In this document: piece after piece, positions 24,801 to 50,313 of the stretch
Layout of the letters: the number at the start of each line of letters is the position of its first letter
Position numbering within the stretch: position 1 is the first letter of the stretch
Origin: Ceratodon purpureus
Lineage: Eukaryota; Streptophyta; Bryopsida; Pseudoditrichales; Ditrichaceae
Assembly: GCA_014871385.1 (NCBI GenBank)
Contig: CM026433.1
Span: 7,430,740-7,494,739 of the forward strand
Direction: 5' to 3'
Length of the DNA stretch: 64,000 bases
The notes under the pieces: generated by a model
Told to the model about the DNA's origin: nothing
The model's input: the letters and a program-made list of their open reading frames with translations, nothing else
Databases searched by the model: none
Translations under genes and position numbers: made by a program

Positions 24801-26108
24801 CCCGTTAGCCTGCGGGGGAGGGGCGTATAGATCAGCGTAGAAGTCTCTACAAATTTCCTCCAGCTTTTGACTATCCGTATGAAGTTGCCCACTCGAGTCT
24901 TTTAGTTGCGAAATGGATTGGAGTCGGGGCTTCTCCCTGACCAGTTTGAAAAACTCGGCGTTGCAGCCGTCTCCACGGTCTCTCCACCTTACTCTACTTC
25001 GGATCCTCTGGCCGGTTGCCTTCTTTCCTTCCAGTTCGGTGATCTGCTCTTTCACAATTGCAGCTTTTAGTTGCAGCCGGTAAGAGCAGGGGTTTTCCTG
25101 CAGGCTCTCGTGAGTTTCTATGAGCTCCTGTCTGAGGGCCGTCTCCTTGGCTCGCATCTCTTCCGCTTTCTTGACAGAGTAAGTACGGTAGAAATGAATA
25201 ACTTTCTTCAGCTTCGAGAAAAACGGGAGATTTCCTGGGAGGGATTCCCAAAGCTTTTTAACTTCTTCCCCGGTCTCTTTTATGTAAGATACATTCATCT
25301 TCCAGTGAGTCTTGTGCTTCGAGGCGTTACCTAGCTGAAGTGTCAGTGTAACCGGTAGGTGGTCTGAAAAGGCACAATCTCCCCGGATTGCGTAGCCAGA
25401 AATAGTGACCGTGTTGCACAGAGGGGGATTCACCGGGGTGTAGATCCTATCTAGCCTTGCAAGGACTCGGTTCCTCCTCTCCTGCCCGTTATCCCAACTG
25501 AATTTTAGTCCTGATCCTGGTGAGAAAGAATCCCTGATGTTCAGTGCATCCTTTAGGGAGTTCCAGGCTAGCCTCTCTTGAGGGCAAATGGTTCGTTGGT
25601 GCTGAGAGAACTTATCAGCGCTCTTCTCGACCATGTTCAGGTCACCCCCTAGCACCCATTTTGCCGCATGGGGTAAGCAGCTTGGTAATCTTGACCACAT
25701 AATCCTTCTCTCCTGTGAGTCATTCGCAGCGTAAATGTTGATGAATCCGCAACTTCCACCAGGGAGATTGTTCAAAACAAACCATAAAACTCTACCCTGG
25801 TGAGAGCTGCCTGAGCTCTCCATATTCGGGCTGAGCCTTGCATGGATCAAAATGGCAACGCCTCCACGTCCCGCTCCTTGATCACTGGGGTCATTGCCGT
25901 AGCCTGGCTGGGCCTCGGAGAACAGATAGGTTGCATTTGGGTTTAGTTGCCTTCCCAGATTTGCCGCCTTAGATCCTGTGAGCTTATGCTCCTGGATAAA
26001 TATAATGTCTGGGGCTGGAGAAAAAGAGGATAGATAGTTCCTGAACCGAGTCACCTTTTCAGGGTCGTTTAACCCTCTAATGTTGATGGTTAGGATGTTC
26101 ATCATCAT
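21813..26108 (-). CDS. LINE ORF2: endonuclease-reverse transcriptase
   Basis: 1,431 residues. The N-terminus is an apurinic-type endonuclease that nicks target DNA: N-I-R-G-L-N, Q-E-H-K, G-G-D-L-N and S-D-H-L-P motifs are all present. The central reverse transcriptase carries N-W-R-P-I-T-L-L-N, K-V-D-F-K-K-A-F-D, R-R-G-V-R-Q-G-C-P-L-A-P-S-L-F and the catalytic F-A-D-D (near 23,970). The C-terminus has a zf-RVT-type zinc region (C-I-V-C-T...H-R-F-Y-S-C). No RNase H domain is seen. Length and order fit plant L1-clade ORF2. The start ATG overlaps the ORF1 stop in an ATGA arrangement, pointing to re-initiation after ORF1 translation. No stop or frameshift is found. Confidence 0.95.
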   Translation of the reverse strand: MMMNILTINIRGLNDPEKVTRFRNYLSSFSPAPDIIFIQEHKLTGSKAANLGRQLNPNATYLFSEAQPGYGNDPSDQGAGRGGVAILIHARLSPNMESSGSSHQGRVLWFVLNNLPGGSCGFINIYAANDSQERRIMWSRLPSCLPHAAKWVLGGDLNMVEKSADKFSQHQRTICPQERLAWNSLKDALNIRDSFSPGSGLKFSWDNGQERRNRVLARLDRIYTPVNPPLCNTVTISGYAIRGDCAFSDHLPVTLTLQLGNASKHKTHWKMNVSYIKETGEEVKKLWESLPGNLPFFSKLKKVIHFYRTYSVKKAEEMRAKETALRQELIETHESLQENPCSYRLQLKAAIVKEQITELEGKKATGQRIRSRVRWRDRGDGCNAEFFKLVREKPRLQSISQLKDSSGQLHTDSQKLEEICRDFYADLYAPPPQANGAAMDFALDHISPKVTEAMRASLGRPLTSIELSDAAKELAKDRAPGPDGISITFFTHHWSLLGGEFLDMINKGLRSGQLPRGMTQGRITLIHKSGPREELSNWRPITLLNTAYKILAKALQTRIKPLLAELVSPDQTAFVPMRFILDNVFVAHEVIDTARRTKQQLLFLKVDFKKAFDKVRWEFLFGTLERLGVGPEFLAMVKLLFIGASATVAVNRSSSESFEIRRGVRQGCPLAPSLFILVTEVLNLMLKRAEAEGKISGIKLPNSNQTQLISQFADDTTVSVEVSQPNQVHNLIDILNLFKEASGLEINWGKSHAYWCCSFPKPPWLHDIGWTWANDQDISKLLGTPFGLDMASENLDSFLIDRIHNKLKYWSSTKLSLAGRAVIVKQVLLSSLWFFLTIWGGSVKALAKVKALLRNYLWSGAEHSTRTRVNWKDCCSKKKVGGLSLIDPQEAMTSLLCKWAVTAYLPGSSNLQVMIRNKLWYCNPSKRSKWPSHAQWGLAVNHSSVPGSKVWSKVHLAWSKMVRHLREAEPLNKADTGQKSLWWTTEFLGGNINASLQMALSLYQRGMRVINDIWDSSDRAPKSMLQLTARYRLEPQEIPVVEDLCHRVEQRFSQKLCTPCDTTPEGTWIGGYSWDASEDPVFLIQTCKSWNPGNLRNRSCLRGFPSGYPAYRVGAQSRILILDQTDRLEGIIRRWTGLVRQARVTQVERHKSANNSIWVYYGEPGALPQFDPAHWKWKNGKPFTMYSAKVGREFLSDKETLIKPVQDKWRHETVIRTRLNWKGVWDDRSQKEAGFMWSMWHQAIATNTWRAKYNPLANPDCIVCTSGSPESYIHRFYSCSQTWLFWKFAFTVVHWMAKGTRNVSPPKEFSLEQCLFGKAVRIRKMGICKVWSLLRGIILWGSWISRNDVVFENCRWSPERIRIYIWDAVIESGRVDWVRICRKIRSTNDAEKIQQALCEFDAMWTPNDVLCSRIGMQVKWHPMPAQIVVNW

Positions 26109-27892
26109 CTAGATTGGGTGGGGGGATTCTGGGGCTGGATTGGGACTGCTTGCTCGATCGTTGTGTCGTCAATTCTCCGGTTGACTGCCTCAAGCTTCGC
26201 CTTGTAGGACGCTGCTAGCTTGATGGCTCTAGAATTCGGGGCCAGTGGGGTAACCGCGTATTGAACCTGCTGTTCCGGTCTGGGGGCCTTGTCAACTGGG
26301 GGAACACTACCTGGGATCACAGAAGGAAAAACTCCGTCGGATGTGTGTTGATCAGCGGGGGCTTGAGCTGGAGAAGCAATTGCTTGGGTTGGGTATTGAT
26401 CCAGGCCAAGAGATGAGGTATGAGATGAGGATTCCGAGGTTTTCCTTCTGATCTCCTCAATCTTTTTAAAAGCAACCGCGGGGGGCTGATCTAGCAGAAT
26501 TCTGAATTGCCCCTGTTCAACTACAATTGGATCATCCTGCTTAACCGAAGGGGGCTCGGTCATGAGCTCAAGTCGCTTGGACGTAGCGCTACTGTGCACC
26601 GGGGAACAGCTGCTCAGGGTGCTGCCTGCTCCTCTTTTTGCTCCTGGATTCCGACCGTAGCGGCCGGGGGACCACGTCATGGGGGAGCTCTCAATGCGCT
26701 CTGGAGATTCAGACAACATCTCTCTGACTTGATCAGTTGTAAGCGGGACCTCAGGGGTGAATTTTGGCTGGGGGTCTGCGTTCCTGTGATTCGAGTTCTC
26801 GGAGCCATGGTGCTGCACTACTCTCGCATCTGAGGTCGCCTTGGACGGTCTGTTCTTCCTGTTGGTAAGCCTGGTGAACCCTTGGGCGTCTGCTTCATTT
26901 TGATTCCGAGTGTCTGGAGCTGGGGGTTGCTGCTCCTGCGACTGGTTGGAGCTCTCTCTGTTGAATCTTGTGTGACGGGCTGCAGGGGCTCTCGGATTGT
27001 GCGGGGCTGATTGCTGCCTGTGAGGTTTATATTGCGCTCCAAGATCAGGGCAGTCTGATACCTTGTGATCAAGAGCCAGGCAAAACCTGCAGCGTACTGG
27101 GGCATGCTCGTAGTTCACCAGGATGTAGTTCGTGACGTTGTCCAGCCCTTGCAGAGCTAGAGCTGAGGGCCACCCTTGCGACAGGTCGAGTCCTACACAG
27201 AAGCGGGGGTCGCGCAAGTGGTTGTTTTGTTGATCATGGGCGTAAACAGGACCAAGAGCGCCAGCAATATAGCCCTCTAGAGGCTTGAACTCTAAAGGAA
27301 GCTTGACAAGAGAGATCCAGGCAGGTAATCGCAGCCCAATAGGGTTGTCTGGGTTGAAATTCGTTGTCCATTCTTGGTAGACGCACTGCCCCCACGGTGT
27401 TGAGTGAGGTGTCATAGATAGTACCTTTCTCGTAACCACCACACTTGCCGTAGAAAGGAAAACGAAACCCCGTCCCATGTCGACTCTGAACGAGACTCCA
27501 TCGAAACCTAGCTTCTGGTTTATCAACTGGATCCAATCGGCGAAGAGGTGCTGGGGGATCTTCTTACCAATGAAACTCGCGATGATGGTGGTCTCCTTCA
27601 GATGAGCCGCCTCCCGACTTAGGGTTTCCGTGTCGAGTTGAGGTCCATTCGTGAGGTACCGCATGAGGAGCCCATGGCAGTTTCTACCGAAACCAGCAGG
27701 GAGCTGTTCTCCAGGAGTTGCTTGGTATGGATTGTGTTGACCTGGCTCGCTAATCCTGTAGCACAGAACTGGACAAGCAATAGAAGCGTCAGTGATATTC
27801 GGTTTTGAATGCGGAAACGTTGGAGGGACTGTCCGTGACTGTGCGCCTTGGTCAGTCTCGCCTCGTGCGAGAGCGTCACGGTATGACGCCAT
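26105..27892 (-). CDS. LINE ORF1: RNA-binding gag-like protein
   Basis: 595 residues. ORF1 proteins coat the LINE RNA and are required for retrotransposition. The middle of the protein has one zinc knuckle, C-R-F-C-L-A-L-D-H-K-V-S-D-C (C-x2-C-x4-H-x4-C), preceded by the conserved R-L-P-A-W-I-S-L-V-K-L-P-L-E-F block of the plant gag-like domain (DUF4283-type). The C-terminal third is proline-, serine- and glutamine-rich and likely disordered. The stop TGA shares three bases with the ORF2 start codon region. The frame is intact. Confidence 0.92.
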   Translation of the reverse strand: MASYRDALARGETDQGAQSRTVPPTFPHSKPNITDASIACPVLCYRISEPGQHNPYQATPGEQLPAGFGRNCHGLLMRYLTNGPQLDTETLSREAAHLKETTIIASFIGKKIPQHLFADWIQLINQKLGFDGVSFRVDMGRGFVFLSTASVVVTRKVLSMTPHSTPWGQCVYQEWTTNFNPDNPIGLRLPAWISLVKLPLEFKPLEGYIAGALGPVYAHDQQNNHLRDPRFCVGLDLSQGWPSALALQGLDNVTNYILVNYEHAPVRCRFCLALDHKVSDCPDLGAQYKPHRQQSAPHNPRAPAARHTRFNRESSNQSQEQQPPAPDTRNQNEADAQGFTRLTNRKNRPSKATSDARVVQHHGSENSNHRNADPQPKFTPEVPLTTDQVREMLSESPERIESSPMTWSPGRYGRNPGAKRGAGSTLSSCSPVHSSATSKRLELMTEPPSVKQDDPIVVEQGQFRILLDQPPAVAFKKIEEIRRKTSESSSHTSSLGLDQYPTQAIASPAQAPADQHTSDGVFPSVIPGSVPPVDKAPRPEQQVQYAVTPLAPNSRAIKLAASYKAKLEAVNRRIDDTTIEQAVPIQPQNPPTQSR

Positions 27893-28127: not shown

Positions 28128-28707
28128 CGTCAAAGGAAGCATACATAAATAACTTTCATAACTCTCTATACAACACCCATCATGAAGACTTTATGAATTA
28201 AATCACGACCTAAGAAAATACCCATCATAAACCTACTTTGAATTATATCACAACTCTCCAAGCAATACCCATCATACCCAAGTTTTTAAGCAAAAAGATT
28301 TATCTCTGGTTGCCCTTTCATGGGTTAATGGCACACTGTAAGATTGGGCCAATAGCCATCATAGCCTCAATGGAGTTATATCACAAAACTTTGAAACAAT
28401 CATAAAAATAAGCACACTTGGACATACCTCCTAAGTCCTTAGACAAATTTATCCATCATGAATATAATTTTAAATTCATCGCCATCTTTAGGGTTTACTC
28501 ATCTTGGTATTACCCATCATAGAGTAATTTAAAATGCATCACGATCTATAGAAAATACCCATCATAGAGTTTTTGAAATGCATATTGTCTTCTCGGAATT
28601 AGCCATCATGGACTACATATGAGATAAATAACAACCACATTGAAGAAATACCCACCATAGAGAAACTTTAGAATACATCACAACTCTTTAAGCCATACCC
28701 ATCATGA
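28128..28707. repeat. Degenerate AT-rich satellite with CCCATCAT word
   Basis: The word ACCCATCAT (or AGCCATCAT, ACCCACCAT) recurs about every 45-65 bp: near 28,165, 28,221, 28,268, 28,350, 28,450, 28,512, 28,557, 28,600, 28,655 and 28,697, each followed by an AT-rich stretch with a CACAACT or CACGA phrase. One more unit stands left of the LINE (about 21,660). It is an old tandem array that has received both the LINE and the large transposon. Confidence 0.75.
28700..28707. repeat. Target-site duplication of the giant transposon, left
   Basis: CATCATGA (nine bases if the C before it is counted), identical to 50,306-50,313. The word also occurs in the local satellite, which lowers its weight as independent evidence, but its position exactly at both ends of the inverted repeats is what a transposon insertion would leave. 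Confidence 0.7.
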
Positions 28708-28836
28708 GGGGAAAGTTCGTACGTGAGCGGAGAGCGTAGAGCGGAGAGCGGTGAGCGCAGAATGGAGAGCACAGAATTGAGAATTAGGAAAATTTTCAAA
28801 AGCAAAGTAGACCCTATAACCGTGGAAAATTACTAA
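28708..28836 (+). repeat. Left terminal inverted repeat of the giant transposon
   Basis: It starts GGGGAAAGTTC, then the 43-bp core with its internal GCGGAGAGC repeats (28,719-28,761), and ends in the shared phrase GACCCTATAACCGTGG. Compared with the right end it lacks about 87 bp between the core and that phrase. Confidence 0.88.
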
Positions 28837-29477
28837 ATTAAGGCTTGATTTTGACACTTTTTTTAGAAAAATAGTGCATTACCGTGGAGATTAGGATTAT
28901 CTCTGGTAAGAATTTATTACGTTTGTTCTCTAAGATACAAATTAGGGCTGATGTCATGATGACGTCATGCATATATTTTGTTAGATTTCTCATGGATATA
29001 GGCAAGATATAATGATCAGGCGTTAAGTTCTAGATCAAACAATTAATTCTTTCATAGGTTTATGTAAATGCACAAGGAAAGAAACAACTTTCACAGAACA
29101 TAAAGGAGGCAAGGTTTGAAAACTTCCTGGAATATTTCAAAATTCGTGTATAATATCTTAACTGCAGAAACCAAGATATACCTTGTTAGAGTCCTTGTCT
29201 TCATCGAAGATTACTCTCTCTTCGTAGGCAGCAAAGCATCTTCATTTCAGTGATACAAGTAGGAGATTTTCATCATCAAACAACACTTGGTAAGCTGGGT
29301 TCCAGAGAAGGAGGTCACTCTTGGTTTCTTGAGCTTGTCTCTAGATGGCGTATTTGGATAGTGACACAGTCCTTGGCATGCTGTGCTGTATGCGAAGGTA
29401 GCGTAGGAGTTCGGGGATGTCAATCTGCAAGCTTGCCTGTAACGTTTTAAGAGTACAACAATTTAGTGTGTTGCGCG
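28837..29477. other. Subterminal region; possible 5' UTR with intron
   Basis: No ORF of note. About 29,117-29,190 (GGAATATTTCAAAATTCGTG and GCAGAAACCAAGAT) is matched by 30,020-30,060. A GTAAGC at about 29,290 and an AG at about 29,465 could bound a UTR intron of the next ORF. Confidence 0.4.
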
Positions 29478-29849
29478 ATGCCGAAGGTGTGTAATGCGAG
29501 ATCCAGGAGGACGAGAGCGGCTGTAGGTTTGCCCCCAAAGGCACCGGCGAGTTATGAGGAGCTGCGGCCGTGGCTGCTGGAGGTGGAGCGCGCCAGGGAA
29601 CGAGGCATGGACCTGCCACCGTTTAGGCACATCGGAAGCCTCCATGTTGGTGAAGGTGAATGGCGTTGGACAGTGCTTTGTACCAATGAGCTTCTCCGTA
29701 TTATGGAATTGTCCCTAATCCCGTATCCCTTGCTATCGAACGTCGATGACAATCCAGTTGTTCAGCTGCCCGAAGTGATCATATCGGATGGCGAAACTTG
29801 CTGGTTTGATATGGACAAGAGTTGGACTGTATATCCTTCGAAGGATTAG
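29478..29849 (+). CDS. Small ORF of unknown function in the transposon
   Basis: A 123-residue frame from ATG at 29,478 (M-P-K-V-C-N-A-R-S-R-R-T-R). The N-terminus is basic. The middle has an alpha-helical E-E-L-R-P-W-L-L-E-V-E-R-A-R-E-R block, and the C-terminal half is acidic and aromatic (S-D-G-E-T-C-W-F-D-M-D-K-S-W). I do not recognise it. The protein-like composition, and the short direct repeats on either side, support a real accessory gene of the element, but there is no homology evidence. Confidence 0.5.
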   Translation: MPKVCNARSRRTRAAVGLPPKAPASYEELRPWLLEVERARERGMDLPPFRHIGSLHVGEGEWRWTVLCTNELLRIMELSLIPYPLLSNVDDNPVVQLPEVIISDGETCWFDMDKSWTVYPSKD

Positions 29850-30362: not shown

Positions 30363-33300
30363 TCACAACATGCTACAGTCGCTACTTTCACTCTCAGAAC
30401 TAGATGACTCTGAATCTCCTTCTACCGCCTCATCATCGACGAATAGAAGGGCCCTGGGATCAAAAGTAGTTGGCCGAGTAGGAACATATGTAAGGGCTCC
30501 AGATTGAAACGCCTGTGCTAAGCCCTCTGCGTAGTCCGGAAGTATGAAAGGCTGAATCGGGCTGGAATGAAGACGCCACGATGGAGTGGACACTGCTCTT
30601 GGCCCACGTGGCGGTGATGCAGAAACTACTCTGCAATAGAGAACCGATTGTGGTTAGATCTTGTACGTAGAGCTGGAAAGAGAAGTAATGCTTGGATAAT
30701 GTGAACGAAGAATAAAAGACGTACACCACTTGTCAGGTCTTGCTCTCTTTGGAGGCGCTTCGCCTGTTGCTGCCGGCCTTGGATGTTTAGGAGGGCCCAT
30801 GGCGGATGGTTTGAGAAGGGCGTTGAATATGGCTTCGTCCTCCTCAAAAGCGAGAATGTGACGACCAACAGCCTTGGCGGCCTTGATGGAGGCCCCTGAA
30901 ACTCGAAGAGAAACAAAGAAATGAGAAACTTTGGAAAAAACGAGAGGAAAAATGAAGCAGAGATATGTAAGAGAGATACCTGTCCCAGCATTCCAGTCAA
31001 CGACTATGTCGTCGGGCTTGGACAGCTCCTCAATGATGTTCTGCATCATCTCAGGGGATTTCTCCCTTGGGCCTCTCCACGGCACCTCCCCATTCATGAG
31101 CTGAGATTCGGCATCGGTGAAGTTGAAAATGGCATCACTCTCGGTAATGTTGAGGAGCCCATGTATCAGGTCTTCCTTCTTCGTCTGGAAGGAGAAAGTA
31201 CTGCCACTACGAACGTAGACGCGAATCCAGAACCGCATAGTCTGCAGTCAAGCAGAACTAGTGAGTAAAATTAAGCGGAAGGGTTATCAGTAAGCGAAGA
31301 GAAGGGCATGTTTAGGAAAAGTACCAAGTTCTCGGGGTTCGTAGGAGAAGTCAGGCCGAGTACATTGACACCCCACCAGTCCTTGAACAGCACGTATCCA
31401 CCAGCAGCAGCTTCTTCCTCGATATCCTTAGCCAGCTTCTGATCAGTGTTGTAGATGAGGCAGATGGCACCATCTCTCTGCAGGAATTCATCTGCAAAAT
31501 GGAAGATGTCGTACAAATAATCCTTGTAGCGAGAGTTCCAAGGCGGAATACTCGTGGGGGGAATGGAAACGGATGGGACGGGAAGATTCTCAGGGATGTC
31601 GGCAATGATCAAGTCGACTCCCAGATGGTTCTCTTGTTTGCACCGGTCCGGAACTTCGTTTTCGCGGCCTGCTCCAAACTAGAGGAAACAAGAAAGGAGA
31701 GTTAGTAACTACATAGCGAGTAGAGTTGGCAGAATCCATTAGATGTCAAATTATAGGAACAAACCTTGCGAATGAAGTCTTGAGTCTTGATCCAATCCGG
31801 GTCGCCCCCTTTATTCTCCTGTCTCCTATTTCGCCGTAACAAGGAATCCACAGATGAGTTGAAGACGGAAACATGTGTGGAAATCGAAGCTCCAGCTGAA
31901 GAAGTTGTTTGAGGATATAGTTTGGCCTTCCTCTGCTGAAGGAGACCTCTGGTGATCTCCGAAGCACTGATCGATGAAGGAGCCGGCGAAGAAGCTGGAG
32001 AAGGGTTGGTAACAACAACACCCGGAGACGGCTCTGGTGCCTTCTCAGCTGGCGCGGAAGACTCCGCACCAGTTTGCTGTGATGCCTCTGACTGAGAACG
32101 CAGAGATTTCAGTCGCCTTCCTCTCCCTCTCTTCGGTGGTGGAGCAGAAGACTGATCCTGCTCTCCTTCACGACCTTCTGCATCATCCACGGAGTCCTCC
32201 ACCACAACCGTACCCCCATCGTGCAGCATCTTGACTTCCGCCTCGGAGTCAATAGTGAAACCACCAATACAATCAAGATACCAGCATCCAGCATCCAGGT
32301 GAGCAGGTTTGTACCTTTTTATCTGCTGAGGAGAGTACATACACTCGTCCGATGATGTCTGCGTCCAAAGCTTGAAGTACATGGGGAGTTGCTGAACGCT
32401 GATGGCCCCCTTCAAAACAAGCTCTCGCTTGAAGTACCTATGGGAAGACAAGAAGGAGGTAAGTATAAAAAACAATTACAAAGAAAACTATGAAATGGAA
32501 ATGAGATTAAGTAAGGTAATGTACCGGTAAGTAACGCGCTTGACAACTTGCGCGGTTCCCGGGAATTTAGCGAAGTTGGACTTCTTGTCGAAGTGCTTCT
32601 CAGCTTTTTTTCCAATGAACGTAGGGAAGGCCTTGTCCCACAAGAGAATACGTGAACTCTCGACAAAATCGCCCGGCTGTTGGACATCAGGAAACGCCAT
32701 CCAATCGATATCGAGGTTCTCAGACTTGAATACATCTTCGACTTCGTGGATGACGGCTTCCTCCAACTGTAATACAAAATTCATATAAGTAGCATCGAAG
32801 AATGAATATGGTAAAAATTTAAAGGAACAAGGAATTGGAATGGATTTTTTATGAAAATTACCCCAGCCCAGAATGAAGCTTTGTTCAACCATGGGTCGAA
32901 TTCGGTGTCCTTGAATTCAGATGGCAGAAATCTGTAAGACGTTCGAGCACTGGGGGATGAGTTCCACCACTTCAACCAACGAGCCTTGTATTTGGCCTCA
33001 ACGGCCGCAGGAACAATCTTCTGAAGCTTATCCACTGACATCTCTGGCTTATTGTTGAGACTGAAATGGCGATTAATCTGCAAGAAGCACCGAAGTTTGA
33101 AAAAGGTAAATACAGAAATTATGGAAGTCATGGGAAACAGTGAATTGAACAATGATCAGTGAGTCACCTCGTTGAGGAAGTCGTCACCATTCTTGGGATT
33201 TGCAATGGCCAAGTACTTGGTAAAGTCCTTCTTCTTGATGGCTTCGACCATTCTCTCTGATGCCTCATTCATGACATCCCAAACTGCACTTGCAGACTGC

Positions 33301-35107
33301 TCATCCTCGGGTGTCTTCATGCGGTAGGCATTGGCTGCTTCATCGGAGGCCGCAGCGAGTTCCCGCTGTAGAAAGAGAATTCAGACTTAGGAAATTTCAT
33401 GAGTATTGAATAATAAGAAGCAAATAGAGAGAGGATGTAGGACTTACTCGGTACAAAAATGCGATGAAAATTTTAGTTGTCAAGGGAAACCAGGAGGGAT
33501 TAGGTGGCTTGTTCTTCAAACATGCGTCATACTCTTCAGGACTGAGGAGGTCTTTGAATTCCTCCAGCTTCATAATTCCGAAAGAGCGGATTCGAAATAG
33601 TTTTGCAGGGAGATTACTCTTGACGTGGTCATTCTCAGTCGACCTGAAAATGAACCAAAATCCGTATGATGAATAATAGAGATGAGATAAAGTAACAAAA
33701 GAAAAACAGGAAAAAAGAAACAAGTACTTACCAGTTGATGTCATGCATTGCGTGAAGAAGATTGCCAACATGGCCACGGGGATCGAGTACTATGCAGTTC
33801 ACAGATATGTGCCATGACGGGTCGTCTGCATGATGCTTGTTGATATGACGAAGCCATGCTGAGAGGCGATGGTTTCCTTCCCAGACAAAAAACATCTTCC
33901 CCGAGAATTGCGACCAGTCCTCGTCATTTAGAAGCTCAGATTCAAATGCATCATTCGCGTCCCTCCACAATGGGCTCCATTTAGCCATGACCTCATCCGT
34001 AACATCTCGTGTCTGCTCTTCGTTGTTGTACATGGAGATGTACATGACGCGGTCGCCATCTCTATACCCCTTGACGAACTCCCGCTCCAAATGCTGCACA
34101 CCCACTTCGCCCACTGGTCTGACCTTTGCCATTGGGATCATCCTGCACAGGGGCACCGACATTCGGGACTTCTGCGATGGCTTGATCCTGAGCTTGTTGA
34201 TGACGGCGTTGGTGTTCACCTTGTATAAGGTTTGATGTTCCAATTCCCCTTCTGTGGCAGTCTTCAAGTTTAACGGACAAGATGGTTTCACCAACACATC
34301 TTGTGTTTGCGTAACCTGCCAGAAGGTACGCAAATTAGGAGAACAAGCACAATCGAAGAAAGTCATGCAAAGTAGACAAGTATGTAAAAGAAAGTAACAA
34401 TATATCTTCATACTGTCATCTCTCTTTTAACAACTCAATCATCATCTGTGATTGATAAAACTATCTACGGGAGGATCGACTATAGTACTCCTTAGACTGT
34501 CTACAGTTCCAGTGACGGCGCCTCCTCCAAAATCGCCTGGTCTGTTGGACAGGGCACGGCAGAATTGCCGGCAGAGCAAAGACCACATGGGCTGGCCTCC
34601 TCACTCTAATCGGCGAGGAAGGAGAGGGTGGAGACATCGGCGGGGAGCCCTGTGGAGGAGACGTGGGCATATAGCCCGGGGAGGTTGGCTCATAAACCGG
34701 GGATGTAGGCATGTACACTGGAGAGGTAGGCATGTACACTGGCGAGGTAGGCATGTACTGAGGAGAGTGGACCTCGAGAGGTCCACTTTCCACACCTACA
34801 GGGTTGGCTACATCACAGGTACAATAAGGCTGATCAAATGAATCCGATAAATCGGAAACATTGATCACAGAAATGGGAGAGGTGGCGGACATCTCAGGAG
34901 CATCGGATGATACCTAGAGTAGAAGAAATGCAAATAGGATTAACTTCCATAATTAAAAGAGTAGGAAACAAAGAAGGGAAGAGGGCGAATAGAATTGAAA
35001 ATCATGAACAGAAAAAAAGAATATATATTGTAGATTGAATGAAATACCTCAGTTTCTGCTGGCGTAGGTTCTTCACGTTCGCTCCCCAGATGATCACCAT
35101 CAACGTC
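30363..35107 (-). CDS. Fusion: CTD-like heptads, ParB-like domain, beta-class DNA methyltransferase-like domain
   Basis: At least 12 exons join with GT-AG borders and consistent phases into 1,175 codons: 35,107-35,048; 34,913-34,605; 34,315-33,732; 33,643-33,448; 33,365-33,168; 33,077-32,862; 32,766-32,525; 32,437-31,765; 31,678-31,325; 31,241-30,980; 30,895-30,730; 30,630-30,363. Near the N-terminus are five Y-(M/E)-P-T-S-P-x heptads. A ParB-like domain follows (S-V-P-L-C-R-M-I-P...V-R-P-V; then F-F-V-W-E-G-N-H-R-L-S-A-W-L near 33,865). The middle is helical and unassigned. Near 31,600 comes D-L-I-I-A-D-I-P-E-N-L in the place of methylase motif IV, and near 31,000 E-L-S-K-P-D-D-I-V-V-D-W-N-A-G-T-G-A-S-I-K-A-A-K in the place of motif I; this order is that of beta-class N4/N6 DNA methylases. 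The catalytic D-P-P-Y is altered to D-I-P-E. The C-terminus is basic, then acidic and serine-rich. The first exon was not found: exon 35,107 starts in mid-frame. The donor of the exon at 30,730 is uncertain. Confidence 0.8.
34657..34761 (-). repeat. Five RNA-polymerase-II-CTD-like heptad codons repeats
   Basis: A 21-bp tandem repeat encoding YMPTSPV (three times), YEPTSPG and YMPTSPP. It matches the Y-S-P-T-S-P-S consensus at positions 1, 3, 4, 5 and 6. It lies in the second known exon of the ParB/methylase gene. Confidence 0.9.
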
Positions 35108-35216
35108 CTGAGGAAATTGATAATTATTAGAGAAACTTACAACTATGAAGAATCAAACCACAACCTAGACAGGGCTCCCAATCAAATATTAAAAACTCAT
35201 AAAAACATACAATGTT

Positions 35217-38200
35217 TAAGGATTTCTTTAATATTTTAATTATCAATAAAAACCTTTAAAAAATCAATAAAATCCATCAATAATTCAAAGAAAACTAAGC
35301 ATTCTCAAGCAATCCAACCCAAGCAGCAGCAGCGACTGGAGAGAATAGTTACGAAATCTCACTTAATCAGCAGAAAAATTCAAAGAAATAAAAAAATGGA
35401 AACCATCCCCAAAGCAACCTCCACGCCCTCGGCCTACTGTCGTCAACGACAGTAGGTTTGAGGTTTTCTTTATTTTTTTAATTATCAATAAAAACTTTTA
35501 AAAAATCAATAAAATCCATTAAGAATTGAAAGAAAACAAATCATTCTAAAGCAATCCAGCCCAAGCAGCAGCAGCGACTGGAGATAATAGTTACGAAATT
35601 TCACTTAATCCACAGAAAAATTCAAAGAAATAAAAAAATGGAAACCATCCCCAAAGCAACCTTCACGCCCTCGGCCTACTGTCGTCAACGACAGTAGGTT
35701 TGAGGTTTTCTTAATTTTTTTAATTATCATTAAAAACTTTTAAAAAATCAATAAAATCCCTTAAAAAAAAAAAAGAAAACAAATCATTCTAAACCAATCC
35801 AGCCCAAGCAGCAGCAGCGACTGGAGAGAATAGTTACGAAATTTCACTTAATCCACAGAAAAATTTAAAGAAATAAAAAAATGGAAACCATCCCGAAAGC
35901 AACCCCCACGCCCTCTGCCTACTGTCGTCAACGACAGTAGGTTTGAGGTTTTCTTTATTTTTTTAATTATCAATAAAAACTTTTAAAAAATCAATAAAAT
36001 CCATTAAGAATTAAAAGAAAACAAATCATTCTAAAGCAATCCAGCCCAAGCAGCAGCAGCGACTGGAGATAATAGTTACGAAATTTCACTTAATCCACAG
36101 AAAAATTCAAAGAAATAAAAAAATGGAAACCATCCCCAAAGCAACCTTCACGCCCTCGGCCTACTGTCGTCAACGACAGTAGGTTTGAGGTTTTCTTTAT
36201 TTTTTTAATTATCAATAAAAACTTTTAAAAAATCAATAAAATCCATTAAGAATTAAAAGAAAACAAATCATTCTAAAGCAATCCAGCCCAAGCAGCAGCA
36301 GCGACTGGAGATAATAGTTACGAAATTTCACTTAATCCACAGAAAAATTCAAAGAAATAAAAAAATGGAAACCATCCCCAAAGCAACCTTCACGCCCTCG
36401 GCCTACTGTCGTCAACGACAGTAGGTTTGAGGTTTTCTTTATTTTTTTAATTATCAATAAAAACTTTTAAAAAATCAATAAAATCCATTAAAAATTAAAA
36501 GAAAAGAAATCATTCTAAAGCAATCCAGCCCAAGCAGCAGCAGCGACTGGAGAGAATAGTTACGAAATTTCACTTAATCCACAGAAAAATTCAAAGAAAT
36601 AAAAAAATGGAAACCATCCCCAAAGCAACCCCCACGCCCTCTGCCTACTGTCGTCAACGACAGTAGGTTTGAGGTTTTCTTTCTTTTTTTTAATTATCTA
36701 TAAAAACTTTTAAAAAATTAATAAAATCCATTAAAAATTTAAAGAAAACAAATCATTCTCAAGCAATCCAGCCCAAGCTGCAGCAGCGACTGGAGAGAAT
36801 AGTAACGAAATTTCACTTAATCAACTGAAAAATTCAAAGAAAATAAAAAAATAGAAACCATCCCCAAAGCAACCCCCACGCCCTCGGCCTACTGTCGTCA
36901 ACGACAGTAGGTTTGGGGATTTCTTTAATTTTTTAATTATCAATAAAAACTTTTTAAAAATCAATAAAATCCATTAAAATTTAAAAGAAGATAAAAATAA
37001 TACTCAAAATCTACAAAATATTCAAAATTTAATTAAGAAGATGTGAGCAATGATGAAGTTCATTATCACACAATGCCACCAAAAAAAAGAAAAAATAAAT
37101 AAAAAAATAAAATTCTCGAATTTTTTGAAGTGCCCCCGGCCTACTGTCGTTGACGACAGTAGGTTTGGGGTATTTTCAAAAATTCAAAATAAAAAATAAA
37201 TATCAAGGAAATACTGGAAATCAACCAATAATTCAGATTTTAATTCACAAATTTTGAGCAATTATTCATTTCATTATCACACAATGTCACCAACAAATGA
37301 AATAAAGTGAATCAAATATAAAATCCCCGAATTCATTGAGGTGCCCCAAACCTACTGTCGTTGACGACAGTAGGTTTGGGGTTTTTCAAATATTCAAAAT
37401 AAAAGAAATAAATCAAGAAAATACCAAAAATCTACGAGATTTCAGATTTTAATCAACAAATTGTGAGCAATTATGCATTTCATTATCACACAATATCACC
37501 AACAAAAGAAATAAAGACAAACAAATATAAAATCCCCGAATTCATTGAAGTGCCTCAAATCTACTGTCGTTGACGACAGTAGGTTTGGGGTTTTTCAAAT
37601 ATTCAAAATAAATGAAATAAATGAAGAAAATACCGAATAACACAAAAAATTACCAAAGTTTGGGAGACAAACACATTGACATAACACAAAAATCCAAATA
37701 GAAAATAAAAAATAAAAAAACTCGCACAAATCCCCAAAGTAAAATCCATGCCTCCGGCCTACTGTCGTCAACGACAGTAGGTTTGAGGTTTTCTTAATTT
37801 TTTTAATTATCAATAAAAACTTTTAAAAAATCAATAAAATCCATTAAAAAAAAAAAAAAAACAAATCATTCTAAAGCAATCCAGCCCAAGCAGCAGCAGC
37901 GACTGGAGAGAATAGTTACGAAATTTCACTTAATCCACAGAAAAATTTAAAGAAATAAAAAAATGGAAACCATCCCCAAAGCAACCCCCACGCCCTCTGC
38001 CTACTGTCGTCAACGACAGTAGGTTTGAGGTTTTCTTAATTTTTTTAATTATCAATAAAAACTTTTGAAAAATCAATAAAATCCCTTAAAAAAAAAAAGA
38101 AAACAAATCATTCTAAACCAATTCAGCCCAAGCAGCAGCAGCGACTGGAGAGAATAGTAACGAAATTTCACTTAATCCACAGAAAAATTCAAAGAAATAA

Positions 38201-41200
38201 AAAAATGGAAACCATCCCCAAAGCAACCCCCACGCCCTCTGCCTACTGTCGTCAACGACAGTAGGTTTGAGGTTTTCTTTATTTTTTTAATTATCAATAA
38301 AAACTTTTAAAAAATCAATAAAATCCCTTAAAAAAAAAAAAAAAAACAAATCATTCTAAACCAATCCAGCCCAAGCAGCAGCAGCGACTGGAGAGAATAG
38401 TTACGAAATTTCACTTAATCCACAGAAAAATTTAAAGAAATAAAAAAATGGAAACCATCCCCAAAGCAACCCCCACGCCCTCTGCCTACTGTCGTCAACG
38501 ACAGTAGGTTTGAGGTTTTCTTTATTTTTTTAATTATCAATAAAAACTTTTAAAAAATCAATAAAATCCATTAAAAATTAAAAGAAAACAAATCATTCTA
38601 AAGCAATCCAGCCCAAGCAGCAGTAGCGACTGGAGAGAATAGTTACGAAATTTCACTTAATCCACAGAAAAATTCAAAGAAATAAACAAATGGAAACCAT
38701 CCCCAAAGCAACCCCCACGCCCTCTGCCTACTGTCGTCAACGACAGTAGGTTTGAGGTTTTCTTAATTTTTTTAATTATCAATAAAAACTTTTAAAAAAT
38801 CAATAAAATCCATTAAAAAAAAAAAGAAAACAAATCATTCTAAACCAATCCAGCCCAAGCAGCAGCAGCGACTGGAGAGAATAGTTACGAAATTTCACTT
38901 AATCCACAGAAAAATTCAAAGAAATAAACAAATGGAAACCATCCCCAAAGCAACCCCCACGCCCTCTGCCTACTGTCGTCAACGACAGTAGGTTTGAGGT
39001 TTTCTTTATTTTTTTAATTATCATTAAAAACTTTTAAAAAATCAATAAAATCCCTTAAAAAAAAAAAGAAAACAAATCATTCTAAACCAATCCAGCCCAA
39101 GCAGCAGCAGCGACTGGAGAGAATAGTTACGAAATTTCACTTAATCCACAGAAAAATTTAAAGAAATAAAAAAATGGAAACCATCCTGAAAGCAACCCCC
39201 ACGCCCTCTGCCTACTGTCGTCAACGACAGTAGGTTTGAGGTTTTCTTAATTTTTTTAATTATCAATAAAAACTTTTAAAAAATCAATAAAATCCATTAA
39301 AAATTAAAAGAAAACAAATCATTCTAAAGCAATCCAGCCCAAGCAGCAGCAGCGACTGGAGAGAATAGTTACGAAATTTCACTTAATCCACAGAAAAATT
39401 CAAAGAAATAAACAAATGGAAACCATCCCCAAAGCAACCCCCACGCCCTCTGCCTACTGTCGTCAACGACAGTAGGTTTGAGGTTTTCTTAATTTTTTTA
39501 ATTATCAATAAAAACTTTTAAAAAATCAATAAAATCCATTAAAAAAAAAAAGAAAACAAATCATTCTAAACCAATCCAGCCCAAGCAGCAGCAGCGACTG
39601 GAGAGAATAGTTACGAAATTTCACTTAATCCACAGAAAAATTCAAAGAAATAAACAAATGGAAACCATCCCCAATGCAACCTTCACGCCCTCGGCCTACT
39701 GTCGTCAACGACAGTAGGTTTGAGGTTTTCTTAATTTTTTTAATTATCATTAAAAACTTTTAAAAAATCAATAAAATCCCTTAAAAAAAAAAAGAAAACA
39801 AATCATTCTAAACCAATCCAGCCCAAGCAGCAGCAGCGACTGGAGAGAATAGTTACGAAATTTCACTTAATCCACAGAAAAATTTAAAGAAATAAAAAAA
39901 TGGAAACCATCCCGAAAGCAACCCCCACGCCCTCTGCCTACTGTCGTCAACGACAGTAGGTTTGAGGTTTTCTTTATTTTTTTAATTATCAATAAAAACT
40001 TTTAAAAAATCAATAAAATCCATTAAAAATTAAAAGAAAACAAATCATTCTAAAGCAATCCAGCCCAAGCAGCAGCAGCGACTGGAGAGAATAGTTACGA
40101 AATTTCACTTAATCCACAGAAAAATTCAAAGAAATAAACAAATGGAAACCATCCCCAAAGCAACCCCCACGCCCTCTGCCTACTGTCGTCAACGACAGTA
40201 GGTTTGAGGTTTTCTTAATTTTTTTAATTATCAATAAAAACTTTTAAAAAATCAATAAAATCCATTAAAAAAAAAAAGAAAACAAATCATTCTAAAGCAA
40301 TCCAGCCCAAGCAGCAGCAGCGACTGGAGAGAATAGTTACGAAATTTCACTTAATCCACAGAAAAATTTAAAGAAATAAAAAAATGGAAACCATCCCCAA
40401 AGCAACCCCCACGCCCTCTGCCTACTGTCGTCAACGACAGTAGGTTTGAGGTTTTCTTAATTTTTTTAATTATCAATAAAAACTTTTAAAAAATCAATAA
40501 AATCCATTAAAAAAAAAAAGAAAACAAATCATTCTAAACCAATCCAGCCCAAGCAGCAGCAGCGACTGGAGAGAATAGTTACGAAATTTCACTTAATCCA
40601 CAGAAAAATTCAAAGAAATAAAAAAATGGAAACCATCCCCAAAGCAACCCCCACGCCCTCTGCCTACTGTCGTCAACGACAGTAGGTTTGAGGTTTTCTT
40701 AATTTTTTTAATTATCAATAAAAACTTTTAAAAAATCAATAAAATCCATTAAAAAAAAAAAGAAAACAAATCATTCTAAAGCAATCCAGCCCAAGCAGCA
40801 GCAGCGACTGGAGAGAATAGTTACGAAATTTCACTTAATCCACAGAAAAATTTAAAGAAATAAAAAAATGGAAACCATCCCCAAAGCAACCCCCACGCCC
40901 TCTGCCTACTGTCGTCAACGACAGTAGGTTTGAGGTTTTCTTAATTTTTTTAATTATCAATAAAAACTTTTAAAAAATCAATAAAATCCATTAAAAAAAA
41001 AAAAGAAAACAAATCATTCTAAACCAATCCAGCCCAAGCAGCAGCAGCGACTGGAGAGAATAGTTACGAAATTTCACTTAATCCACAGAAAAATTCAAAG
41101 AAATAAACAAATGGAAACCATCCCCAAAGCAACCCCCACGCCCTCTGCCTACTGTCGTCAACGACAGTAGGTTTGAGGTTTTCTTAATTTTTTTAATTAT

Positions 41201-42609
41201 CAATAAAAACTTTTAAAAAATCAATAAAATCCATTAAAAAAAAAAAGAAAACAAATCATTCTAAAGCAATCCAGCCCAAGCAGCAGCAGCGACTGGAGAG
41301 AATAGTTACGAAATTTCACTTAATCCACAGAAAAATTTAAAGAAATAAAAAAATGGAAACCATCCCCAAAGCAACCCCCACGCCCTCTGCCTACTGTCGT
41401 CAACGACAGTAGGTTTGAGGTTTTCTTAATTTTTTTAATTATCAATAAAAACTTTTAAAAAATCAATAAAATCCATTAAAAAAAAAAAAGAAAACAAATC
41501 ATTCTAAACCAATCCAGCCCAAGCAGCAGCAGCGACTGGAGAGAATAGTTACGAAATTTCACTTAATCCACAGAAAAATTCAAAGAAATAAAAAAATGGA
41601 AACCATCCCCAAAGCAACCCCCACGCCCTCTGCCTACTGTCGTCAACGACAGTAGGTTTGAGGTTTTCTTAATTTTTTTAATTATCAATAAAAACTTTTA
41701 AAAAATCAATAAAATCCATTAAAAAAAAAAGAAAACAAATCATTCTAAAGCAATCCAGCCCAAGCAGCAGCAGCGACTGGAGAGAATAGTTACGAAATTT
41801 CACTTAATCCACAGAAAAATTTAAAGAAATAAAAAAATGGAAACCATCCCCAAAGCAACCCCCACGCCCTCTGCCTACTGTCGTCAACGACAGTAGGTTT
41901 GAGGTTTTCTTAATTTTTTTAATTATCAATAAAAACTTTTAAAAAATCAATAAAATCCATTAAAAAAAAAAAAGAAAACAAATCATTCTAAACCAATCCA
42001 GCCCAAGCAGCAGCAGCGACTGGAGAGAATAGTTACGAAATTTCACTTAATCCACAGAAAAATTCAAAGAAATAAACAAATGGAAACCATCCCCAAAGCA
42101 ACCCCCACGCCCTCTGCCTACTGTCGTCAACGACAGTAGGTTTGAGGTTTTCTTAATTTTTTTAATTATCAATAAAAACTTTTAAAAAATCAATAAAATC
42201 CATTAAAAAAAAAAAGAAAACAAATCATTCTAAAGCAATCCAGCCCAAGCAGCAGCAGCGACTGGAGAGAATAGTTACGAAATTTCACTTAATCCACAGA
42301 AAAATTTAAAGAAATAAAAAAATGGAAACCATCCCCAAAGCAACCCCCACGCCCTCTGCCTACTGTCGTCAACGACAGTAGGTTTGAGGTTTTCTTAATT
42401 TTTTTAATTATCAATAAAAACTTTTAAAAAATCAATAAAATCCATTAAAAAAAAAAAAGAAAACAAATCATTCTAAACCAATCCAGCCCAAGCAGCAGCA
42501 GCGACTGGAGAGAATAGTTACGAAATTTCACTTAATCCACAGAAAAATTCAAAGAAATAAAAAAATGGAAACCATCCCCAAAGCAACCCCCACGCCCTCT
42601 GCCTACCAC
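35217..42609. repeat. Tandem array, about 242-bp units, each with a 24-bp inverted repeat (30 sites)
   Basis: Each unit holds arms CCTACTGTCGT and ACGACAGTAGG around a 2-bp centre. Sites start at 35,433, 35,675, 35,918, 36,160, 36,402, 36,644, 36,888, 37,140, 37,351, 37,560, 37,758, 38,000, 38,242, 38,485, 38,727, 38,969, 39,211, 39,453, 39,695, 39,937, 40,179, 40,421, 40,663, 40,905, 41,148, 41,390, 41,633, 41,874, 42,117 and 42,359. A 31st unit at the right end lacks the palindrome. Units at the right alternate in several marker positions (CTAAAGC/CTAAACC, TTCAAAG/TTTAAAG), so amplification went by multi-unit blocks. The array sits between the ParB/methylase gene and the small ORFs of the giant transposon. 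Possible roles: a binding array for the ParB-like protein or the transposase, a recombination site, or a source of hairpin RNA. Confidence 0.97.
36960..37745. repeat. Variant block of the array: B-type units with TG centre
   Basis: Three units (sites at 37,140, 37,351 and 37,560) have a spacing of about 210 bp and a body (TTATCACACAATG...CACCAA, CCCCGAATTCATTGA) that does not match the 242-bp units, yet the 11-bp arms are kept (one mismatch in the third). Their centre is TG and that of the other units is CA, so the 24-mer is in inverted orientation. Confidence 0.9.
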
Positions 42610-44659: not shown

Positions 44660-47600
44660 ATGCATCATTCCTCTCACTTTGCTCTTGCAATATTGCTTCG
44701 CCAGTACAGTCACACTTCTCTCTTCTTGACTGAGTTGCCTGCGAACATGGGGATGGTCTGCCTGTACGCCCAAGGCATGGGCATCCCACTTAGGTTTCGC
44801 GTAGATGACGATGGTCTAGCTACGGTGTCCTCTCTTCGCCTCAGTCTCAGATTCCATTTCCGTGAAGATTCCATCAGTATAGAGGAGGAGATCTTTGATG
44901 ACGTTACTGCCGAGGTTACCCACACCCTCGGACAACCTTCAATGAGAGATGAGAACAACATGTTGCAGTGGAGACTCCTCCCTGGATCCTATAGAGTCTA
45001 TGGTCTTACTGATTCTCTTATGGCTGCATCCACTGAGATCCTCACCCCCCGTCGCTCTTCTACTTGCACAATTCAGACTCCCTTACCTCATGATGTCAAA
45101 GTCAAAGTCGAGCCTGGTACCGAGACTTCAGATGTAGAGAAACCTCCTCCGACCGTCATATCTCTCTCTTCTGATGACGAAGTCAGTCCCGTGAAGTTGG
45201 TGCCTAAGGTCCATGCAGATGCTCCTCCTTCCAATGTGTCTCCTCCATTGTCCCAGGTCACAGTTAGCATTGTTCCGCTCCTTAAAGAGATTGCTAAGAC
45301 GCGTGGGTCCAAAAACATTTTGAAGAAGATAGACTATTCCACTATTAGACACGAGAGAGTAGAGTACTTGCCCGCGAAGTTTGATGGTCCGGTTCTTTTT
45401 GAGTTGCCCCCAGCTGCTGCAGGTTCCTCTAAGCTTGCCGCCAAGTCAATGCAGGGAATGGACAAACGATACGACGGACACTTGTGGACCAAGACCATCA
45501 CAACAAACATCAAAAACGACTTCGGACTCTCTTTTCGAAGTTCCACCTGCGTCGGATGGCTCCGCTGCAGCAACAGGGACTGTGACTTCCTGAAGCGTGT
45601 TCCCAAGATCTTCGAGGTTAACGAGACTGAGTTCGAAGGCTGTACCCTGCAAGCTTTTCTCATGGATCAGCCTCCTCCATCTGACTCCACGCTAGTGTGC
45701 AAGGTATGTAAAGAACCTCCATCATGTGTAGCTACATGCGAGGCTAAGATTTATTATGTTGTGGGCAAACCAAATCAGACTAGAGCTTGTATTCACATAG
45801 GAACACATCATCATCCAGTGAAAGTTGGAGACTACAGAGACTCTAAAGCAGAGATTAGTAGCTTAATAGAAGAGCAGGTAGAGATGAACAACAAAGCAAC
45901 AAAGAGCGTCGTTGTCCTGGAGGCGAGCAAACTCCTCATCGGCAGCTACCTCCTACAGCCCGAGGATGCTCCACCGAGGAAGCTGACGATGGAGGAGCTG
46001 GTTCCTGTTCTGGATCGATGCAAAGATATGGCGTCGCCAAACATCCGCAACAAAGTCGCCACCTTCAAAAGATTCAAAAGGTACGGAATCATGGACGGTA
46101 TCACCAAGCTCCGTGGTAACAGTCTCTGGGCGTATGTCCAGGAGAATAGGTTTCCTGGTCAGGGATCGATGCGTGACAAAGTCTTCCTCTTCAAGATGTC
46201 GGAGGTTGGGCCGGGAAGTGGTGTCGACTTGGTCAGCCGAATGCAAGCTGGTGGCGACTTGGAGAACGCATGGATCATGTTCGACCATGTAAAACGCGTC
46301 AAAGACTGGTCGACCATGGCGTGCCATGTGTACGACGCCACGTACTGCCGCGTGATGACAATCGCCACTTGCGACATGCAGTCCGAGGACACGGACGCCC
46401 AGCTCGTCTTCTGGAAAAACCTGAACCTGGTCATGGAGATCAATGGCGTTGCAGCGCCGAACTTCAAGGGGTTCATGGCGGATAACGCACAGGCGAATTG
46501 GAATGCAGTGCGAATCCTTTACGGCAATGGCAACAAAGAGGACCCAATGGAGGACCGGGAGAGGTCGTGCTTGTTCCACTGGACTCAGAACATGGTGGCG
46601 TATACGCAGAAGCACTTCCCCGAAGAACTCTGGGAACAGCACAAGAAGATGTGCACTCAGTACAAGAATGCGACCAGCATGGCAGAGGCGGAAACTCTGT
46701 ACCACGCGTTGCGAGCATGGTGGGCATCCACCGGGGTCGTTGGCGAAAGCGGCCTCATCAAACTCGATCAGTGGCTGTCATTCTGGCACCACCGCTTCCG
46801 CCAATGGGGGGGATTCATGACCGAGGTATTATCTCTGAACTCTGTTTTGATGTTTTTCATACTGGTTTCCTAGCCCTAACCTACAAAACTCTAATCCGTG
46901 AATCTAATGGCACCTACTGTCAAAATTGCAGAAATTCACGGAAGAAGAACTCACAGAGATGCCCACCTGTAACCTCGCCGAAACAGTTCACAACAAGTGG
47001 CTCCAGGCTTCTGGAAACAACGGGAACGACCTCTACGTTGCTACCGTGGACGATTTCGTTCGGGCTTTTCTTCAAGTTGTTAACTACTACCAATTCCTCA
47101 AAGGTGACGTCGGCGGAACAGGACCGTCCAAGAAGGAACTCAGACTCCGGATGGCTGAACGCAACGCCAAGAAATGGGGAAATCCTACACTGCTCGATAA
47201 GCCCATGCTCGATATGCCAGGCGCGGATGAGTTCTGCACCCGTCAGCCTATCATGCCTGGAGCGGAAGTCTTCGGTTCACAGAAGCGAAAAGCCGACGTC
47301 CCCATCGGAGCTGACGAGGAGTCTCATCGCCCGGACAAGACAAACTTCTCACGCCCAAGAGGCCCAAGACGTGCCGTCAGGGCTCGCCCTATGCAGATGC
47401 CCGTCATTGTGGAAGACGACTCCGAACACGACACCGAGGTACAATGTACGCAACCTCCTGCCCAGGAAGTTGATTCCCCTTTACCTTCACCTGTGAACAA
47501 GGGCGGCATTCGCCATGTCAACGCGGTTGAAGAAACCAAGGTGGACGTGAAGGAGTGGCACATTTCGAGACTTCACAAACTTTCTGCGAAGTGCTGCTGG

Positions 47601-48425
47601 GCCCAGAGAGCTGAAACGAAGAAGAAGTGCACTGAGAGAATCGTCAGGGGGCCCCTTTGCACAGCTGCACCGACCTACACTGGGCTGTGGACTAACTATC
47701 GCAGGAACACTGTTGAGAAGACAGAGTTCTTCTTCTGCTCCGACGATATTGAGCGCTGCGTGAAAGGCTCTAAGCGCAAGTGGGTAGCGCACTACTCAAA
47801 GGACCAGGAATTCCCCTCCATTCCAGAGGTCTGGCCAGTGAAACTAGGTACTAATCTAAAACTGACTGAGATTCTTGCCCTCGAAGCAGCAGGCTTTCAA
47901 CTTCCGCCTAAAAAGCCGGTCTCCCCAAGACGCCTCTTCTCCTCTGCCCCGCCCCCTGCGAATCTCAACTCGGTGCCAGTCCCTGCAGACGCTGACCGCT
48001 ACCCAGGCAAGAGAGACGGCAAGATGGTGAAGCGCACTGCCACTCGTCCCAATCCGGCGCAGCGACTATCCATGGGCTCCTCCGAGTCTCTCAAAGCGCG
48101 CCTCCGTTCCGTCACCATGATACCTGAGCCGGGCCACGGTTGCATCATTGGGCTGGATTCGGGCGTCGCTCCTCACATCACACGTTACCAGATTACCATC
48201 AGTTCTTACCCTGGTTGCACTTGCCCAGCATTCAAGAAGACGATGACTACGTTCAAAGGCAGGACTCAGTTCACGTATTGTAAGCACCTTTACTACATAC
48301 TCTTGAAGGTCTGCAACCGTGATCCCGAAGCCGAGCTTTTCATCCATGCGCCTACCTTTAGCTTCAACGAGGTCAGGCTTCTCCTAGAGAGTGGAATCTT
48401 GCGTCACCCCTTGGCGAAGAAGTAG
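44660..48425 (+). CDS. Transposase: GCM1/FLYWCH-like zinc region, DD(E) core, SWIM zinc finger
   Basis: Exons 44,660-46,825 and 46,932-48,425 join at a phase-0 GT-AG intron of 106 bp to 1,219 residues; a start at ATG 44,747 is also possible. Near residue 170 is V-I-S-L-S-S-D-D-E, a typical SUMO-interacting motif. A zinc region follows (G-W-L-R-C-S-N-R-D-C-D-F-L; C-K-V-C-K-E-P; then R-A-C-I-H-I-G-T-H-H-H-P-V) like the WRKY-GCM1/FLYWCH region of MULE and FAR1 proteins. The RNase-H-like core shows Asp559 (V-Y-D-A-T-Y) and Asp608 (F-M-A-D-N-A-Q-A-N-W); the third acidic residue cannot be picked by eye. Near the C-terminus, C-T-C-P-A-F-K-K-T...Y-C-K-H-L-Y-Y is a SWIM finger (C-x-C...C-x-H). It would cut and paste the element by its inverted repeats. 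A dead relative is at 590-866. Confidence 0.88.
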
Positions 48426-49132: not shown

Positions 49133-49414
49133 AACTGCTGTCCCGCAGTACGGAAAAGAGCTTCACAAAACACCAACAGAAAAGAGGAAGAGACATTCCA
49201 TAATCCTAACTTAAATATCCGTGAAGGAGATGCTTGGCGCCCTTGAAAATCGGATATTCATTCATTTGGAAGTTGCATCTTCCTCAACTGAATGGAAAAG
49301 GATGAGGGTTGAGCAGAAGTCATTTAGCTTTTAAAATTTAAAAATAATAAAAAAAATTAAAAAAAAATTATAAAAGCAAAAAGGAAAAAAAGCAAAAATA
49401 AATATTAAGGTTGA

Positions 49415-50305: not shown

Positions 50306-50313
50306 CATCATGA
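50306..50313. repeat. Target-site duplication of the giant transposon, right
   Basis: CATCATGA, identical to 28,700-28,707. The bordering C-run makes an 8- or 9-bp length equally possible. Confidence 0.7.

Follow-up and report, generated by a model that had tools for sequence, protein, structure and literature searches.

To our knowledge, there are few plant transposons for which the means of staying active against silencing have been worked out in detail. The VANDAL elements of Arabidopsis are large Mutator-like elements. Their protein VANC21 binds clustered 9-mers in noncoding DNA, and these motifs form tandem repeats, which are intronic in VANC21 and VANB21 and lie upstream in the case of VANA21, according to PMC5735166; the same paper and PMC10398659 report that VANC causes a loss of methylation throughout the VANDAL element. 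Here, we describe a transposon with a comparable layout in a 64,000-nucleotide stretch of the moss Ceratodon purpureus (assembly GCA_014871385.1, contig CM026433.1, positions 7,430,740 to 7,494,739 of the forward strand), which is referred to as the window hereafter and whose own numbering is used throughout. The transposon carries a transposase-like gene, a second gene whose product contains a ParB-like stretch and a methylase-like domain, and an array of 30 palindromes beside the latter gene. In our interpretation, to which we give roughly even chances, the element is Mutator-like and the product of the second gene recognises arrays located in the first intron of that same gene; the pair would serve VANC-like anti-silencing rather than chromosome partition.

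As in the VANC/VANDAL system, a large element encodes a transposase and a second protein, and a short motif (here the putative target) occurs as tandem repeats, which turn over, in the element's own noncoding DNA. The second proteins are unlike each other: the moss protein combines ParB-like and methylase-like parts with heptads resembling the carboxy-terminal domain (CTD) of RNA polymerase II (Pol II), and Pfam scans of the gene product and of the probable first exon found neither DUF1985 nor DUF287. The moss motif is a 24-bp palindrome, in contrast to the 9-mer YAGTATTAY of VANC, and it is steadier than the VANC targets, being kept across diverged copies. With the phage fusions of ParB and N6/N4 methylases (phiD12, and those described in PMC12704722), the moss protein shares a ParB-like N-terminal part, a C-terminal N6_N4 methylase part, and the link to a mobile element. 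Unlike these fusions, it is encoded by a split gene and has added heptads, a long middle region, and a degenerate motif IV, and its ParB-like part has no significant sequence match to theirs. The same paper states that ParB-methylase fusions are frequent in phages, that GxxR constitutes Box II of ParB, and that sulfiredoxin is the commonest eukaryotic form; its main text contains no words beginning with "plant" or "transpos". Finally, the locus resembles bacterial ParABS in that clustered palindromes adjoin the gene of the putative binder, but it differs in that no ParB profile matches and in that a transposon in a large genome has no known need for partition.

The element of the window is 21,597 bp long (28708–50304) and is bounded by terminal inverted repeats and a perfect 9-bp target-site duplication. 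The left repeat, which starts with GGGGAAAGTTCGTACGTGAGCGGAG, lies at 28708–28770 (+ strand), and the right one lies at 50240–50304 (− strand); they are 88% identical over 75 columns. The duplication CCATCATGA is found at 28699–28707 and, with the identical nine bases, at 50305–50313. A second complete copy (C1:14057418–14074975; 17,558 bp) carries terminal repeats and its own 9-bp duplication, AACATGACA. Terminal inverted repeats with a duplication of about 9 bp, as expected of Mutator-like elements, were present in both of the complete copies read. For the left terminal repeat, a minimum of 40 near-identical copies was counted in the genome (the best 40 of 1410 candidates scored). The transposase-like gene (44660–48425, + strand; 44660–46825 spliced to 46932–48425; 1219 amino acids) is oriented divergently from the ParB-like/methylase gene. 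Its C-terminus is SWIM-like, at 12.9 bits (below the cut-off of 19.6), and a Pfam scan of the whole protein gave no match, so that the superfamily assignment is based on the ends and on motifs. Between the two complete copies, the transposase is 96–97% identical, with a dN/dS of 0.10–0.11 in its exons, and the array is of a different unit type. These features point to a Mutator-like organisation for this large DNA transposon of high copy number. The original prediction had placed the gene and the array in one mobile unit, and indeed both lie inside 28708–50304, and the second complete copy has the same parts; the range it had given, 30363–42609, contains the exons at 30363–35107 and the array, but the element itself is larger.

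The ParB-like/methylase gene lies on the − strand at 30363–35107. It comprises 12 exons with GT-AG borders and a single open frame (35107–35048, 34913–34605, 34315–33732, 33643–33448, 33365–33168, 33077–32862, 32766–32525, 32437–31765, 31678–31325, 31241–30980, 30895–30730, and 30630–30363), which yield a conceptual product of 1175 amino acids, matched by PF01555. The product begins with the heptads that resemble the Pol II CTD; these are followed by the ParB-like exon, then by a long middle region, and at the C-terminus by the N6/N4 methylase-like domain. A further exon of 149 amino acids at 44136–43690 (− strand) probably belongs to this gene as its first exon: it has a GTAAG donor in phase 0, matching the phase of the acceptor at 35107, and it is kept in the second complete copy, where it is 72% identical in amino acid sequence, has a dN/dS of 0.27, and likewise carries a GTAAG donor in the corresponding position. 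Since this exon, if joined to 35107 as the splice signals suggest, lies beyond the array, we infer that the array is probably contained in an 8.6-kb first intron (43689–35108).

The ParB-like exon, counting that of the window, occurs at least 150 times in the genome (scored from 1904 candidates); the copies are 85–100% identical, and 137 of the 150 have no stop. The gene is under purifying selection. Among 27 distinct open copies, the median dN/dS of the ParB-like exon was 0.23 for the 217 pairs with pS above 0.03, single pairs ranging from 0 to 0.59. Measured against the window, dN/dS was 0.16–0.27 in four diverged copies, and it was 0.46 and 1.32 in two close copies with few changes. For the methylase exons, values of 0.30–0.55 were obtained between two copy groups. 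Because one close pair shows an excess of replacement changes (12 replacement vs. 1 silent in exon I; 2 vs. 0 in exon J), relaxed or positive selection on these exons is possible. Element copies are also mosaics. In the copy at C1:353467 (L053/L040, C1:350298–357048), the ParB-like exon is 94% and the methylase exon 61% identical to those of the window, and in the second complete copy (L086), the dS of exon 1 is 0.66 vs. 0.11–0.14 for the transposase.

The palindromes occupy 35433–42382 without strand assignment. Each has the sequence CCTACTGTCGT-(CA or TG)-ACGACAGTAGG, with 10 or 11 of 12 positions self-complementary. A scan of the window that allowed up to 6 arm mismatches gave 31 matches in total: 30 in the array, 29 of them without an arm mismatch and one with a single mismatch, and a stray at 63202 with 5 mismatches. 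The original prediction, which spoke of 30 near-perfect 24-bp palindromes 300 bp from the gene, agrees with these counts and with the 326 bp measured from the exon at 35107 to the first palindrome. The array itself (35214–42606) begins 107 bases from the same exon and is composed of palindrome-bearing units of 242 bp and about 210 bp; the unit length is about 242 bp in 25 of the 30, the remaining spacings being 198–252 bp. In the 362-Mb assembly, 1725 perfect palindromes were found, vs. none for a reversed control pattern. Within the 242-bp units of the window, the palindrome stands at the start of the longest invariant run (38 columns). This run alone is not evidence of constraint, because 210 of the 242 columns are invariant across the 25 units; the weight comes from the other copies.

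Forty-seven other gene copies were examined, and the gene and the palindromes were found to occur together in most of them: a recognisable upstream palindrome exists in 40, a diverged one exists in 1, and none exists in the stretch read in 6. The 30 gene loci of the upstream scan were the best-scoring ones, and 6 plus 12 further copies were picked by hand as diverged. In the best-scoring set, 24 of the 29 other copies have an exact palindrome within 1.5 kb upstream, and the partly masked L028 has a variant; L032, L033, L034, and L039, which lie on contig C6 and are closely similar, have no palindrome in their shared 1.5-kb upstream stretch. Among the six diverged copies, read over 3 kb upstream, the site or variants were found in four (L040, L043, L044, and L045) and none in L041; in L042, which has 3 stops, a 137-bp repeat with GTTCGCGCCCGTC / GACGGGCGCGAAC arms replaces the usual palindrome. 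Of the 12 further diverged copies, 11 have recognisable sites and one (L075) has a diverged repeated motif. Seen from the palindromes, the 50 sites listed of the 1725, which are all from C1 and make up four clusters plus the opening site of another, are each upstream of a gene copy, the nearest listed site being 1.0–3.1 kb from its gene. Seen from the element ends, 18 of the 40 scored terminal-repeat copies enclose a compared gene copy, 16 of these, the window included, at 4897–4908 bp; this comparison took in 97 of the 150 gene copies. The co-occurrence in other copies that the original prediction called for thus holds in 40 of the 47, and 6 lack a palindrome within the 1.5–3 kb of upstream sequence covered.

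The 24-mer is kept while the repeat bodies around it turn over. When 76 unit bodies were grouped by single linkage at our own threshold (75% identity over 60%), 16 families resulted, which all have this 24-mer in common, flanked by A-rich CCYC and CYG/GGG sequence. Among the sites from the examined gene loci, 84 of 113 have no arm mismatch, and in L043, two positions are changed in matched fashion on both arms, as judged by eye. The outer flanks conform to a consensus sequence, and their covariation does not exceed that of shuffles (12 flank pairs, 25 distinct contexts); thus, there is no evidence for a selected paired RNA structure outside the 24-mer. Because the 24-mer is kept across the unit families and the flanks do not covary, our preferred explanation is that a protein recognises the two-fold symmetric site as double-stranded DNA.

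The methylase-like domain and the CTD-like heptads, neither of which appeared in the original prediction, change the likely job of the protein. The former (30730–31678, − strand) matches PF01555 at 33.5 bits on the spliced product and 38.2 bits on the domain (cut-off 26.7) and a PHROG methyltransferase at 1.4e-9. It resembles SfV-type DNA adenine methylases from phages, with 41% identity to SfV over 63 amino acids around motif I; the phage methylases compared are, unlike the moss protein, short and stand-alone, without ParB-like or heptad parts. Motif I of the window is DWNAGT (30980–30998, − strand), and most copies have DWNAGT or EW.AG(T/S), L053 having EWSTGT and L062 having EWKAAT. The catalytic motif IV of N6/N4 methylases is (D/N/S)PP(Y/F/W). 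The solved relatives DpnA and CcrM have DPPYN there and a phage relative has DIPYN, whereas the motif of the window is degenerate, reading DIPE (31589–31600, − strand). In the 16 copies read, including the window, it is D[IV]PE in 14, DIPK in 1, and DILE in 1, and the aromatic residue is found in none of them. A stop interrupts the stretch that was read in four of these 16 (L060, L061, L062, and L082); 5 of the 20 fetched stretches (L054, L063, and L077–L079), having no methylase match, were left out of the count. The domain is probably altered so as to be no longer a normal methylase, and ordinary base methylation would have been lost.

The window gene has five heptads, Y[ME]PTSP[VGP], at 34653–34757 (− strand), which match PF05001 at 20.2 bits, just under the cut-off of 20.3. 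Heptads of the form Y[MEI]PTSP[VGPS], two to five per copy, occur in 34 of 36 copies (window included), and the two copies without them also bear stops in the ParB-like exon. Just before the heptads, exon B holds a 22-bp palindrome, AGTGGACCTC-TC-GAGGTCCACT (34766–34787, − strand), found in 28 of the 30 best-scoring gene loci; it may be simply coding.

If our interpretation is right, the protein would act in dimeric form or as a loaded clamp and would recognise, through whichever of its parts makes the contact, the palindromes of all element copies. The palindrome-bound protein would then hold the element in a transcribable state, in the manner of VANC, and the CTD-like heptads would act as the effector by bringing in transcription or chromatin factors. 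A more specific history is conceivable, though doubtful in our view: the transposon family may have acquired a ParB-methylase gene of phage type, inactivated its methylase chemistry, and added a CTD mimic, the protein and the parS-like intron array serving self-recognition and anti-silencing as a nuclear system that marks no copies other than the element's own. This abundant family, many of whose copies are intact, seemingly carries a matched protein and DNA address assembled from different parts, namely phage-like domains, a probably dead methylase put to other use, and a likeness of the polymerase tail. If the binding is true, this would be a second, independent solution to the problem solved by VANC and would supply a ready sequence-specific tool. 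The system is testable by virtue of its at least 150 gene copies and 1725 perfect sites in one genome.

The original prediction had proposed a possible parB/parS-type pair. In a true pair of this type, a clamp with the ParB fold would be loaded onto the palindromes together with a nucleotide, would slide from there, and would bridge element copies or keep them together. We consider such a pair quite unlikely. The G-N-H-R-L core it had pointed out is present: the GNHR motif, the GxxR phosphate motif of Box II, lies at 33866–33877 (− strand) in the ParB-like exon (33734–34315, − strand; 194 amino acids) and is invariant in 12 of 12 aligned copies. This invariance is weak evidence, because the mean column identity among the aligned copies is 95%. 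The adjoining clustered palindromes also fit such a pair, as does the Streptococcus phage phiD12 (L085), in which a ParB domain is followed by a methylase in one frame, in the same order as in the moss gene; by eye, that phage frame has an intein-like insert after the start of the methylase. Membership in ParB, however, was not supported by any profile tried. Searches with the gene product (Pfam, PHROGs, NCBIfam, and PDB sequences) gave no ParB match, hmmscan of 12 gene copies gave none to PF02195, and Pfam ParB_N found none in the whole genome at an E value of 10, although it does in 11 of 14 control genomes; profile-profile comparison of the ParB-like part was no better than shuffles. The predicted structure gave no clear answer. 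A low-confidence single-sequence model of the 132-amino-acid core (best of five at pLDDT 52, the others at 36–41; the full exon at 34) has the order strand-helix-strand-insert-strand-GxxR helix-strand, which fits that of ParB Box I/II, but no ParB was among the Foldseek or VIA matches listed for this weak model. Since each sequence test failed, the protein should be called ParB-like, by motif and strand order, and not a ParB.

Several observations weigh against VANC-like recognition by the element's own protein. The palindromes could be read by a host factor or by the transposase, and the protein and VANC have no Pfam domain in common. Six of the 47 copies lack a site in the upstream sequence covered, which was 1.5 kb long in four of them and 3 kb in the other two, and 22 of the 40 terminal-repeat copies enclose none of the compared gene copies. 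Pairing is partly lost in L040 (9–10 of 12) and in L028 and L069 (9 of 12). Even where the methylase domain has only about 60% identity, the core site is unchanged; thus, the fast co-divergence of the VANC type is not seen. Some repeat bodies are distantly alike (70–77% over part), so that the 16 families are not all of independent origin, and concerted evolution within an array can keep a 24-mer without binding. Finally, the 38-bp form, computed for one site, is very stable when folded as RNA (−34.3 kcal/mol; z −8.8). This folding and the position of the array within a probable intron suit a host factor that reads the palindromes as an intronic enhancer, or RNA hairpins that feed or block small-RNA silencing. 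We regard these possibilities as unlikely, given that the outer flanks do not covary and that the listed palindromes track this single gene. Highly improbable, in our judgement, is the binding of the palindromes by the transposase for assembly of a transposition complex: the transposase is encoded in the same element, but every site of the window is at least 6.7 kb from either element end, and the window scan found the 24-mer in neither terminal repeat. We also see little likelihood in a functionless, self-amplifying tandem repeat in the intron, kept uniform through gene conversion and hairpin-templated copying. The homogenised units of the window array and the distant likeness of some unit types would be expected of it, but the same 24-mer recurs in the 16 unit families, in the same place beside the gene, with periods of 242, 211, 171, and 128 bp.

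Some minor features were also observed in the window. Inside the element are two small open reading frames (ORFs), one of 150 amino acids at 48680–49132 (− strand) and one of 127 amino acids at 29466–29849 (+ strand), the latter with no match in Pfam, and 21 copies of a 17-bp unit lie near its right end (49413–49773). Near the two window edges (1778–3785 and 61702–64000) lie direct repeats of 1.9 kb (88.6%) and a 107-bp identical stretch. Adjoining the element, at 21813–27892 (− strand), are two long ORFs of 1431 and 595 amino acids that look LINE-like by eye.

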